IMG/VR virus record: IMGVR_UViG_3300021432_000028
Span: 1-33,009 of that record
Origin: a virus
Length of the DNA: 33,009 nucleotides
Direction: 5' to 3' (one strand)
The position numbers and the translations under genes are program-made. Numbering within the stretch: the first letter of the stretch is position 1; every line of letters begins with the position of its first letter. The notes beneath the pieces were generated by a model, which searched no databases, was not told where the DNA came from, and saw nothing but the letters and a program-made list of their open reading frames with translations. Below are positions 25,005 through 32,444 of this stretch, in pieces.

Positions 25005-25108
25005 GTTGACTCCTGAAAAAGAGGGGCGCGCTGCCTCATTGCGGAGACATCGTAGGCTATGCCCGTTGGGTACTCATTCCCCGACGCGCCCTCGCGTAGG
25101 TACGCCTC

Positions 25109-25759
25109 TTAAACCAGACTCTCGCCGCCCGTGCTCTGGCTCGGTGCCGGCTTGTCGGCGTCGCCGACCGTCAGACCGAACTCCTTGCCGCTCGACACGA
25201 CCGCGTTCGAAAGACGCGGGCCGTGGCCGGCGAACTGCACGCCAAGGACGCTGCAACCGATGCCGGCGCCGTTGAAGTCGTAGCCGTAGAACTGCAGGTG
25301 CACGTTGGCCTTGCACCCCGCGTACGGCCACACATCATCGGCCGGTGTCAGCACCGCGGCGCTCCCGCGGTTCTGCACGTTCACGCCGTTGACGGTCGCC
25401 AAGATCGTGGGCTGGGTCTCGTTGCCGGCGCTGAGGTACAGCTTCCCGGCGTAGTGCGGCTTGCCCGCACGGTACTGGTCCCCGCGCTGCAGACAGAAGC
25501 GCTGGTTGTTGCCCTTGATCATGGCTAAGACCTGGTCGGCCTTCTCGCTGAACCGCTTCACGGCCGCAGCGCGAATCACCCCGATCAGTTCCTTGAACTG
25601 CGGGTGCGTCTCGCCGAAGATCGCGTCGATGTGGTACTTGTCCGGCTTCGCCTGGCCGGTGCGTGTGTCGATCTGCGGCTGCTTGCTCTTGAACGGGGTC
25701 GCGAGCGAAACACGATCCAACAGCACGTCATTCAGAACTATCTCTACCTTGTCACTCAT
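25109..25759 (-). CDS. DUF2815 ssDNA-binding-like protein
   Basis: 216 aa, GGAGA before the ATG. The family pattern is visible: VLLDRVSLATPFKSKQP near the start, a YHIDAIFGETHPQ segment and a LQRGDQYRAGKPHYAGKLYL segment. VWPYAGCKANVHLQFYGYD and GIGCSVLGVQFAGHG follow, with an acidic/Ser-rich tail. DUF2815 proteins (about 180-220 aa) are regarded as phage single-stranded DNA-binding (OB-fold) proteins and occur beside DUF2800 and family A polymerases, as here. It would coat replication intermediates. Confidence 0.8.
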   Translation of the reverse strand: MSDKVEIVLNDVLLDRVSLATPFKSKQPQIDTRTGQAKPDKYHIDAIFGETHPQFKELIGVIRAAAVKRFSEKADQVLAMIKGNNQRFCLQRGDQYRAGKPHYAGKLYLSAGNETQPTILATVNGVNVQNRGSAAVLTPADDVWPYAGCKANVHLQFYGYDFNGAGIGCSVLGVQFAGHGPRLSNAVVSSGKEFGLTVGDADKPAPSQSTGGESLV

Positions 25760-28049: not shown

Positions 28050-28474
28050 GCGGCTCTCCATTGACGTAACAGCTTCGAGCGCCTTCTAGCGTCGGCGATG
28101 ACGTGGTTGTCCGTCCTAGTCTTCTCAACGTGTTCAAGCTCGGTCAGCGGCTGCAGATTTTTTACGCAGTGGCGGCCGCCAAGCCTCAACGGGATCTTGT
28201 GATCGACATCGTGACCGCAGAGCACAGCGCTGTTGAAGATGGCTTGGAATTGTTCATTGGTACAACAACCGCATCGCTGTTGAAGTTTCATGGCGCGACG
28301 CTTAGCTTCGTTTGCTCTTCCCTTCTCCGGGTGCGCCTTGGCCCAAGCCAAGTACCGCGCCAGCGCTCTCTCCGGGTGCGCCTTATCCCAAGCGGCGGCG
28401 CGTCGTCGCACTATCTCTCGGTGCGCTGCGGCCCAAGCCCGATGACTTTTGCGCCGTTTCTCCGGGTCTCTCAT
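28046..28474 (-). CDS. HNH endonuclease (third HNH-type gene in the window)
   Basis: 142 aa. The first 60 residues contain repeats of the type A-W/R-A-K-A-H-P-E (AWDKAHPERALARYLAWAKA), a basic helical linker often seen in free-standing HNH proteins. The catalytic part has CGCC, then CGHDVDHKIPLRLGG and HCVKNLQPL. It is a probable homing endonuclease. It overlaps the metallopeptidase gene by 4 nt and the next gene by 4 nt, so it was inserted without breaking coupling. Its zinc/HNH sequence differs from the other two HNH genes, pointing to independent acquisition. Confidence 0.8.
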   Translation of the reverse strand: MRDPEKRRKSHRAWAAAHREIVRRRAAAWDKAHPERALARYLAWAKAHPEKGRANEAKRRAMKLQQRCGCCTNEQFQAIFNSAVLCGHDVDHKIPLRLGGRHCVKNLQPLTELEHVEKTRTDNHVIADARRRSKLLRQWRAA

Positions 28475-28917
28475 CGTCTGATCTCTTCTTGCAGGTCGGA
28501 TATGGCCTGTTTGATTGAACGCGGAGGATCATACGCATACAGTGGCGCGACGAGCCGCGCGGCGGTGGACACCAGCAGCTTGGCGCGGTAGTTGCGGTCG
28601 ATCCGCGGGCCCAGCTGGGCCTTGTACTCGGCGACGTGCGCCTTCAGCTCCTCGGTGTAGCGGAACTCGGGGTCGCTGAGGTAGAACTTCCACCACAGGT
28701 TGGTCAGCATCTCGGGCGAGCCGAGCGCGCGCGAGCCCTCGCCAGTGATCTGTCGGCGCTGGTGCACGGCCTCGTGCGCCAGCAGCGCCGGCGGGATCGG
28801 GTTGCCGGTGGGGTTGTAGATGTGCTCGCCGTACGCGAAGATCACGCCGGGCTTGCCCGCGTCAGGGAACGCAGCCAGGATCTGGTCGAAGTTGGGCGGT
28901 CGCTCGACGATGATCAC
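28471..28917 (-). CDS. zinc metallopeptidase-like protein (HExxH)
   Basis: 148 aa from GTG at 28917 (GGAG with 5 nt spacing; the ATG just upstream is followed at once by TGA). The active-site motif HEAVH is at residues 48-52 in PPALLAHEAVHQRRQ. Downstream a WWKFYLSDPEFRYTEELKAH helix provides a third ligand candidate. Small phage proteins with this layout exist; the substrate is unknown. The ribosome site can be sequestered by an upstream structured leader (see 28921-29013). Confidence 0.7.
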   Translation of the reverse strand: MIIVERPPNFDQILAAFPDAGKPGVIFAYGEHIYNPTGNPIPPALLAHEAVHQRRQITGEGSRALGSPEMLTNLWWKFYLSDPEFRYTEELKAHVAEYKAQLGPRIDRNYRAKLLVSTAARLVAPLYAYDPPRSIKQAISDLQEEIRR

Positions 28918-28920
28918 ATA

Positions 28921-29013
28921 GGCTCCAGGTTACAGCATAAAGAAACGGTCGGCCTCGGGGTCTTCGTTGGGGACTCGAACCCTAACCCGCACCAGCGGTA
29001 AGACCCCGGAGCC
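28921..29013 (-). promoter_or_regulatory. structured leader with tRNA-like three-way junction
   Basis: Read on the - strand: an 8-bp stem (GGGGTCTT, AAGACCCC; 29007-28957) encloses a CCGC-TGGT-GCGG hairpin and a T-arm-like hairpin (TTAGGG, loop TTCGAGT, CCCCAA, one A-C mismatch). The whole 51-nt unit resembles a tRNA acceptor, one arm and a T-arm but lacks an anticodon arm. Immediately outside it, GGCTCC (29013-29008) is complementary to GGAGCC (28926-28921), which contains the Shine-Dalgarno sequence of the metallopeptidase gene. This could be a translational switch, an RNA-processing site or a degenerate tRNA. Confidence 0.55.
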
Positions 29014-29021
29014 AGACTCGG

Positions 29022-29444
29022 TTAGACCAGGGACGCCTGCGCGGCCGCGGCGTCGATGGCGGCCTTCTTCTCTTCCAAGGCGTCGATGGCCGCCTGGAAC
29101 TGCTCCGGCTTCAGCTCGGAGGCGTTCGCGACCTTGAACGTGCCGAGGATGTCCACGGCCGCCTGCCGGTTGATGCCGGCGAGGGCGAGCACGGCCTTCT
29201 TCAGGGTCTCGAAGGCGGGGTAGGTCGGCGGCGCCGGCGGCGCGGCAGCGGGAGCAGCGGCGGGAGCCGTCGCAGCGGCAGCGGCTGGTGTTGCGGCCGG
29301 CGCGGCCGATTCGGTGGCCGCCACGACCTTCTTCACGGTCGCCTTGGCGGCAGATTTGACGGCGGCGAGGTCGGCCTTGAGGTCGGCGACGACGGCCGCA
29401 ACTTCCTCGCGAATGATCGCGCGGAGGTGTGCTTCGAAACTCAT
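29022..29444 (-). CDS. Ala/Pro-rich protein with two small helical domains
   Basis: 140 aa. The N-terminal helix (EAHLRAIIREEVAAVVADL) is amphipathic and could oligomerise. An Ala/Pro linker of about 35 residues follows, then a compact C-terminal domain (TLKKAVLALAGINRQAAVDI, ... VANASELKPEQFQAAIDAL). The C-terminal part looks like small helical domains seen after linkers in some phage DNA-binding proteins, but no family is claimed. AGGAGA lies 10 nt before the ATG. Confidence 0.6.
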   Translation of the reverse strand: MSFEAHLRAIIREEVAAVVADLKADLAAVKSAAKATVKKVVAATESAAPAATPAAAAATAPAAAPAAAPPAPPTYPAFETLKKAVLALAGINRQAAVDILGTFKVANASELKPEQFQAAIDALEEKKAAIDAAAAQASLV

Positions 29445-30730: not shown

Positions 30731-31429
30731 TCAGGCTCCTATCAGATCAAGGTTCCGGTTCAAGTGAACCGGGGTCGCTTTCGGGTACTGCCTCGAAAGT
30801 GACCACAGTATATCAGACGGCTCGACGCCGTTCAAGTACACGTACCGGTACTTCGGCTCGATGGGCACGAACTGCACCCCGTTCTCGCGGGCCCACTGCC
30901 GCGGGCTCGTGATGCCGCGGGCGGCGAGCGTGCGCGGATGCACGCGCTTGCCATCGATCAGGTACTCGGAGTCGTGGGGCCGGCTCTCGCCGGCGAACCA
31001 AAAGTTCGTGGCCTGGTACACGAAGCCGACGTGCGCCTGACCGCGGTCAGCGAACGAGACGCAGATGAACGGGCGCGGCAGCAGGCGTAGCGCGCGGCCG
31101 ATCAGTCGGCTCGCGGCGTTCTTCTCGTGCGTCGTGATCGCGAGCCGGTTCAGCTCCCACACGATGTCCCTATTATTGGGCGCCACGCTGCGCGCTACCT
31201 GCGGCGACGACGGGCGCCCGAACGTAACTACACCCACCAACTTATCGGCAGCGAAGAGACCGAACGCGAAGCTCGCGTTGGCCGCCCGCCCGGAGTAGTG
31301 GTGAGCGATGATAAACGGCGCGCTCTCCCGCGCCGTTATCGGTTGGACGTGGAGCGGAGGGGTCGGAATTGAACCGCCACCCGCGGTTGGTACCGCGTGT
31401 TCTTGCCGTTGAACTACCTCCGCGTTCAT
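30731..31429 (-). CDS. Mom-like DNA modification enzyme (GNAT-related)
   Basis: 232 aa. Mom-family layout: IIAHHYSGRAANASFAFGLF (HHY at residues 43-45), LVGVVTFGRPSS, IVWELNRLAI, ASRLIGRALRLLP, FICVSFADRGQAHVGFVYQA and FWFAGES. Phage Mu Mom converts adenine in DNA to N6-carbamoylmethyl-adenine, blocking host restriction. Here the residues after 160 are basic and differ from Mu. The ATG overlaps the previous stop (TGATG), and no other in-frame start exists before HHY. Codons 3-27 coincide with a tRNA-like sequence, so the 5' end is unusual. Activity is inferred from family motifs. Confidence 0.7.
   Translation of the reverse strand: MNAEVVQRQEHAVPTAGGGSIPTPPLHVQPITARESAPFIIAHHYSGRAANASFAFGLFAADKLVGVVTFGRPSSPQVARSVAPNNRDIVWELNRLAITTHEKNAASRLIGRALRLLPRPFICVSFADRGQAHVGFVYQATNFWFAGESRPHDSEYLIDGKRVHPRTLAARGITSPRQWARENGVQFVPIEPKYRYVYLNGVEPSDILWSLSRQYPKATPVHLNRNLDLIGA
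31350..31423 (-). tRNA. tRNA-Gly-like sequence with irregular anticodon loop (likely degenerate or a tRNA mimic)
   Basis: On the - strand: acceptor GCGGAGG/CCTCCGC (7 bp perfect), D-stem GTTC/GAAC, anticodon stem CGCGG/CCGCG, T-loop TTCAATT with a 4/5 T-stem, discriminator T and encoded CCA. The first acceptor pairs, the T discriminator and CC in the loop point to glycine (anticodon ACC if the loop is read TACCAA). The anticodon loop is only six bases and the T-arm has one extra base, so a normal tRNA is doubtful. It lies wholly within the 5' coding part of the Mom-like gene. Confidence 0.5.
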
Positions 31430-31661: not shown

Positions 31662-32444
31662 CTACGTCACACTTTGAGCGGATTTCCATAGGGTCGGGTC
31701 TACCAAGGGCTCGATTTGACGTAATACCAAGGGCCCGCCCGGCCGCGCCAGGGGCCGCAGGCGCCGCCCGTCCTGGGCCCCCGTCCGGGTGAGGGTGGCG
31801 CCCCAGGCGAGCCGGCCTGCGTAGCGAGGGTTCGCCAGGATCCTCTTTACAGCATTGTGGTGCCAGCGGGGCCCTCGGGGGCCGGGTATCCCCTCCCGGT
31901 TCAGGGTCCGTGCGATCTCGGCAGGCCGCGCGCCTCCGGCAGCCGTGGCGTAGATCCGGCGGACCACGCCCGCCTCGCCCGGCCCGTAGCCGTAGCACTT
32001 GCCGCCCGTAGGTTTGCCGGCGAGCGCCCGCCCCTCCATGCCGCGGCGGGTGCGGTAACTGATCTGCTTGCGGTACGCGGCCGCCATAGACCCCATCACG
32101 GCCCCTAAGATCTCCGCGGAGTCTTGGCGGGTGTCCAGGTCGCGCGTCACGACGTGCACGCCGATGTCGGACAATTCCGCGAGCCGCGGAGACTGCTCGG
32201 CCATGTTACGCCAGAGCCGCGACGTGTCTTCAGCCAGAATCACCTCGAAGGCGCCGGCTCGCGCGGCCGCAAGGCACGCCTGATACCCAGGGCGGGCAGT
32301 CTTGCCTCCAGAGATAGCTCGGTCCTCGAACCGTGCTACTACCTCGAACTCGCGAGCGAGCTGCTGGCAAACACGAAACTGATCCTCGATAGAGGATTCG
32401 CTCTGCCGGTCCATCGAGTAGCGCGCGTAGAGCGCGGCCTTCAC
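31662..32444 (-). CDS. serine recombinase, C-terminally short
   Basis: 260 aa. Resolvase-type catalytic domain: ALYARYSMDRQSESSIEDQ with nucleophile Ser 10, EVILAEDTSRLWRNMAEQ, and QISYRTRRGMEGRALAGK. A partial recombinase domain follows (VVRRIYATAAGGARPAEIAR, NREGIPGPRGPRW, NPRYAGRLAWG) and the protein stops in VDPTLWKSAQ. Large serine integrases usually continue for another 200 or more residues with a zinc ribbon and coiled coil. Loss of that part makes it doubtful as an integrase; it may be a remnant or a minimal form. Overlaps its upstream neighbour by 4 nt. Confidence 0.8.
   Translation of the reverse strand: MKAALYARYSMDRQSESSIEDQFRVCQQLAREFEVVARFEDRAISGGKTARPGYQACLAAARAGAFEVILAEDTSRLWRNMAEQSPRLAELSDIGVHVVTRDLDTRQDSAEILGAVMGSMAAAYRKQISYRTRRGMEGRALAGKPTGGKCYGYGPGEAGVVRRIYATAAGGARPAEIARTLNREGIPGPRGPRWHHNAVKRILANPRYAGRLAWGATLTRTGAQDGRRLRPLARPGGPLVLRQIEPLVDPTLWKSAQSVT

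Follow-up and report, generated by a model that had tools for sequence, protein, structure and literature searches.

A tRNA-like junction closed by a helix in the spacer between two phage genes, and folded RNAs at the corresponding site in related phages

In the early region of phage T7, RNase III sites are intercistronic hairpins between co-transcribed genes. Here, we describe an element on the - strand of the record of an uncultured virus (33,009 nt, called the window below), which lies between two phage genes and resembles these sites in several respects: a stable helix stands directly after the upstream stop codon and ahead of the next Shine-Dalgarno (SD) sequence, more than one such element occurs per genome, and only the coding strand carries them. 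However, the helix of the present elements encloses branched, sometimes tRNA-like hairpins, and cleavage is putative here. A library of papers was also searched for tRNA-like spacers in phages, and nothing directly relevant was found in it.

Predicted fold of the window element

The original prediction for this locus described a compact three-way junction in which an 8-bp perfect stem encloses a short hairpin and a T-arm-like hairpin, with no anticodon arm. All of the features named were found in the sequence of the - strand (Table 1). The stem (P1) and both hairpins are present in the MFE fold, and the anticodon arm is indeed missing, with zero bases between hairpin 1 and the T-arm-like hairpin. 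In addition, the 53-nt core folds at -26.8 kcal/mol, and 1000 dinucleotide shuffles give -18.7 +/- 2.9 kcal/mol (z -2.8, p 0.007). The predicted ensemble probability of P1 is 0.87. The three-way junction is real and better than chance, and it starts no more than about 15 nt past the upstream stop codon. Meanwhile, the complete 122-nt leader is unexceptional against shuffles (z -0.85), and helix counting over the whole window hardly discriminates at 64% GC (34 observed, 19-24 in shuffles).

Table 1 Features of the window bearing on the element
Feature	Positions	Strand	Basis or detail
Upstream gene (SLV gene), Ala/Pro-rich, C-terminus ..ASLV	29022..29444	-	HMM of relatives, flanks
Downstream HExxH protein, 148 aa, metallopeptidase-like motif HEAVH	28471..28917	-	ORF; homologues with invariant H48 E49 H52
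Compact three-way junction (P1, hairpin 1, T-arm-like hairpin)	28956..29008	-	MFE fold, sequence
P1, GGGGTCTT with AAGACCCC	29007-29000 with 28964-28957	-	8 bp; 9 with closing C29008-G28956
Hairpin 1, CCGC-TGGT-GCGG	28998-28987	-	4 bp, D-arm-like position, GG in loop; sequence, MFE
T-arm-like hairpin, GTTAGGG-TTCGAGT-CCCCAAC	28986-28966	-	One A.C mismatch; fits GGTTCGANTCC
Lower helix extension, GGCU/GGCC	29013-29010/28954-28951	-	MFE fold
Lower helix extension, GUC/GAC	29017-29015/28950-28948	-	MFE fold
Lower helix extension, CG/CG	29020-29019/28947-28946	-	MFE fold
GGCTCC, complementary to SD region	29008..29013	-	Sequence
GGAGCC with SD core GGAG, upstream of the GTG start	28921..28926	-	Sequence
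Second P1-closed branched spacer, after SSB (gp2.5-like) gene, ends CTTTTTC (terminator-like)	25016..25093	-	Sequence, fold

The downstream gene starts with GTG at 28917. Its homologues form a small protein family, about 130-150 aa long, in which H-E-x-x-H is invariant. No homologue was found in known phages at E 1e-3 (only insignificant matches up to E 10) or in the genome_contigs collection (one genome per species), and there was no DNA similarity of note to the region in known phages. In addition, the SSB (window 25109-25759), the SLV protein, and the Cas4-like exonuclease of locus L010 (DUF2800) have the C-terminal ..SLV in common; the SSB of L017 is among the proteins concerned, and relatives have ..GLI. 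It is possible that ..SLV is a common C-terminal tag of replication proteins.

Spacers at the corresponding site in related phages

Of all records, L001 (39.9 kb) is nearest and represents the same phage: it is 99.98% identical to the window over the common part, and the leader is identical. Contig G001, nearly identical to the window, runs colinear with it from 2491 on; the two part at 32443, where the serine integrase ORF (31662-32444) begins. More distant relatives were found via the DNA polymerase and via an alignment of the HExxH protein, and the spacers that follow the SLV stop codon were taken from 13 further loci (n = 14 with the window). When viral contigs were scanned with the SLV protein, only three known loci came up because its motifs are too common.

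In the relatives, the SLV homologue sits upstream of HExxH, either directly or a gene or more away. The spacer is followed by an HNH gene in L040, a 136-aa gene in L037, a 50-aa ORF in L045, and other genes in L052. The structured spacer thus accompanies the 3′ end of the SLV gene rather than HExxH. In L050, the SLV and HExxH genes abut and leave no spacer.

We found a helix of 10-14 bp beginning 7-13 nt past the upstream stop codon in 9 of the 14 spacers (each p <= 0.004, dinucleotide shuffles), and the combined test over all 14 gave p of about 2e-13. In the window, the p value was only 0.03, and it came from the SD-complementary helix rather than P1. The test was not significant in four spacers (L036, L046, L039, and L037). 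The nearest relatives, L036 and L046, form strong hairpins, and their closing stem is missing from the best fold, folds that include it being worse by 2.1 and 5.6 kcal/mol, respectively. A second helix of 12 bp (AGCTTGGCGCTA/TAGCGCCAAGCT), closing two hairpins, was seen right after the first element and just upstream of HExxH at L048:3900-3990. Rfam gave nothing at gathering score for the window and the 13 related loci, and no match up to E = 1 for two SSB/array spacers.

The relatives include a sub-family with GAGUCCCG directly before the P1 helix and AGAUGGGC directly after it, with 12 copies in 9 contigs. Its copies are found also after the SSB (gp2.5-like) gene, and two are in an array in L030. 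The 12 copies were compared in a register set by the flanks, not by pairing. Standard pairs made up 95% of P1 cells, 9 of the 12 pairs were changed on both sides (31 such cells), and none of 2000 column shuffles matched the paired percentage or the double-change count. Sliding the P1 partner by one or two bases lowered pairing to 32-65%, and the covariation count of a tool on 9 of the 12 copies agrees. Furthermore, over 35 whole records the pattern was confined to such sites, on one strand per record, while the reversed control pattern had no match. The sub-family is absent from Rfam 15.

A covariance model (R1) recovered the 12 copies, with scores of 38-73 bits, and in L119 two candidates with weaker scores of 20-25 bits. 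There (L119:10829-11009, contig G011; SSB flank seen also in L023), several tandem P1-closed elements of the CCCGCGCGCC/GGCGCGCGGG kind flank a tRNA. The window element was rejected as a member: the best R1 score in the window was 5 bits with filters off, and the element has neither the GAGUCCCG/AGAUGGGC flanks nor the 12-bp P1 of the model. It does lie directly after the stop codon of a ..SLV gene, one of the two sites accepted for the sub-family, the other being after the SSB gene. The two kinds of element are alike in the orthologous site after the upstream gene, the closing helix near the stop codon, and the hairpins inside; they are unlike in sequence, in the 3′ flank AGAUGGGC, which the window element does not have, and in the model score. 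With so few bits from R1, the two kinds are akin by position and architecture, and the window element is a counterpart of the sub-family in these two respects, not a sequence member. Compensatory changes, by which the original prediction was to be judged, occur in the P1-type helices of positional homologues, but the window's own P1 shows no variation for such a test because the sole close homologue is identical there.

Complementarity to the Shine-Dalgarno sequence

It had also been proposed that a 6-bp helix directly outside the junction can mask the ribosome binding site of HExxH. The GGCTCC/GGAGCC complementarity is present, but the SD helix is missing from the predicted fold, in which GGCU pairs with GGCC beside P1. 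The whole lower helix extension (28946..29020, - strand) competes with the proposed SD helix. Constrained folding showed that forcing the SD helix costs about 7 kcal/mol relative to the best fold, which corresponds to an ensemble weight of about 1e-5, and GGCTCC arises by chance in 5.2% of shuffled leaders. In homologues there is no compensatory change at GGCTCC/GGAGCC, the very outcome named beforehand as speaking against the mask. Pairing of the SD with the leader is not conserved in the relatives, and no equivalent pairing was found there. As for an SD-sequestering cis-regulator of the riboswitch or thermosensor kind, no pairing of the SD with the leader was seen in the predicted ground state or in a conserved alternative. 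SD masking as the main reading was rejected after constrained folding, shuffles, and comparison with relatives, and the mask is a complementarity only. The idea of an HExxH leader that hides its own ribosome binding site is not supported: in the relatives, structured spacers follow the upstream gene at its 3′ end, and the mask is energetically unfavourable.

A related explanation is a translational switch or coupling device for HExxH, in which GGCTCC at 29013-29008 would pair with the SD and a ribosome terminating at the upstream stop codon would melt the pairing. The complementarity is exact over 6 bp and reaches 9 bp with one G-U (p 0.03 in shuffles), GGCTCC stands 9-14 nt past the upstream stop codon, inside the footprint of the terminating ribosome, and the SD is partly paired in several leaders. 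However, the modelled accessibility of the SD barely shifts (from 0.38 to 0.47) when the first 15-18 nt are masked. Together with the folding cost, the frequency of GGCTCC in shuffled leaders, the lack of an equivalent SD pairing in relatives, and a structured spacer that is not bound to the HExxH gene there, this makes such a device very improbable.

tRNA likeness and possible function

The window element is like a tRNA in that P1 corresponds to the acceptor stem, the T-arm has a TTCGAGT loop, and the short first hairpin has GG in its loop. It is unlike a tRNA in that it has no anticodon arm, no CCA, a first loop of only 4 nt, and one extra base between T-arm and P1. ARAGORN made no call at 28956-29008, and the Rfam tRNA family (RF00005) did not match even at E <= 10; a real tRNA was thereby ruled out as the identity of the element. 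The T-arm consensus GGTTCGAGTCC (7-nt loop, 5-bp stem) is present with one stem mismatch, a stringency at which 10-22 chance matches occur in 595 kb and about one is expected per window of such size; the motif scan picks up 28966..28986 as a T-arm with 3 of 4 positions in the outer stem.

Meanwhile, 14 long contigs (665 kb) contain 17 perfect T-arms, compared with 0-3 in shuffles. A T-arm lies in the SSB 3′ flank in 7 of the 14 (G007, G009, G011, G012, G022, G024, and G026), one further perfect T-arm is in the L030 array, and most of the remaining ones are inside tRNAs called by ARAGORN. Two of the seven SSB-flank T-arms belong to called tRNAs, namely a tRNA-Thr in L017 and one without assigned type in L023, where the closing helix GTTTCCGG/CCGGAAGT runs on beyond the acceptor stem. 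The SSB flanks of L041, L043, and L045 hold cloverleaf-like elements that are not called as tRNAs, that GGGCC/GGCCC closes, and that precede a T-run, and that of L020 holds a single T-arm hairpin inside a long helix. Because T-arms recur in the lineage, the one at 28986-28966 is less likely to be an accident. The suggestion of a tRNA-like scaffold therefore stands as regards the compact junction, the structured site in relatives, and the recurring tRNA-like theme of the lineage, but not as regards cis-regulation of HExxH.

In L039:6332-6420 and L030:6600-6700, a T-arm is followed by a capped hairpin and by a D-arm-like GGTGTAGTGG(C/T)AGCAC, all within a GGGG/CCCC helix. By eye, this arrangement looks like a circularly permuted tRNA-like fold, although the MFE does not show such a fold.

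A separate tRNA-Gly-like gene with CCA was called by ARAGORN at window 31350-31423 (- strand), where it forms the first ~25 codons of the ORF for the DNA-modification protein Mom (30731-31429). The Mom domain begins right after the CCA, and there is no standard start codon after it. The same arrangement is found at L010:4567-4640 (Mom 70% identical), with compensatory changes in the acceptor and anticodon stems; a tRNA upstream of Mom was not found in six other phage records checked. Mom makes a glycinamide-type adenine modification, so it is conceivable, as a speculation, that the tRNA-Gly-like gene serves as glycyl donor for Mom.

Three explanations of the window element remain to be weighed. 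First, it could be what is left of a tRNA, as a decayed gene or a fragment, with no function today. The fit to GGTTCGANTCC, the GG in the first loop, and the acceptor-like P1 point this way, as do the tRNA pieces in comparable spacers, some real, some degenerate, and some permuted-looking, and a functionless relic is conceivable for the window copy in particular, since its P1 offers no variation in which covariation could show. However, P1 is perfect, the core is better than shuffles, the site is under structural constraint in relatives, and neither ARAGORN nor Rfam calls a tRNA, so that we regard a relic as unlikely.

Second, the element could lower read-through into HExxH as a transcription attenuator or as an intrinsic terminator, either with a loop that is large and branched. 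The window has a GC-rich stem and then GTTTCTTTAT, and T-runs end many SSB-flank hairpins of the lineage, including the one at 25016-25093 and the cloverleaf-like ones. We consider this reading unlikely for the window element: the site was not called by a terminator scan, the tail after the extended stem is only U-rich, the loop is far larger than usual for a terminator, and U-runs are lacking from the GAGUCCCG elements of the orthologous site. Where U-runs do follow the helix, termination is the simpler reading, and the SSB-flank hairpins that end in them may be plain terminators.

Third, the strong closing helix right after the stop codon, with the next SD outside it, fits intercistronic punctuation. 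We propose, as the most likely of the readings and with a probability of roughly 0.45, that the window element is a structured intercistronic RNA that punctuates the mRNA by processing and/or 3′-end protection and is under the same constraint as the elements of its relatives. The P1-closed tRNA-like junction separates the SLV gene from HExxH in a co-oriented gene run. The helix might be a processing site of the polycistronic transcript, through RNase III-type cleavage of the long helix or, where the spacer holds a tRNA, tRNA-type processing, and/or might protect the 3′ end of the upstream message; the downstream SD would be left free, outside the closing helix. The relatives keep a strongly folded P1-closed element at the SLV and SSB sites, while the inner hairpins, and sometimes a whole tRNA or cloverleaf-like element, are exchanged. 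It is doubtful, but conceivable, that the lineage as a whole punctuates with interchangeable modules (tRNAs, tRNA-like cloverleaves, and P1-closed junctions) between co-transcribed genes; such a system would follow a logic like that of mitochondrial transcripts, which tRNAs punctuate.

Folded spacers in phage genomes usually receive no attention. Here, different phages have different folded RNAs at one spacer site, among them a strongly covarying sub-family new to Rfam, and tRNAs or tRNA-like folds occupy another site, behind the SSB gene. What deserves study is the upstream gene at its 3′ end, not an SD switch. If these elements are processing or stabilising modules, they would offer a testable case of tRNAs and RNA hairpins arising, decaying, and replacing each other inside operons.
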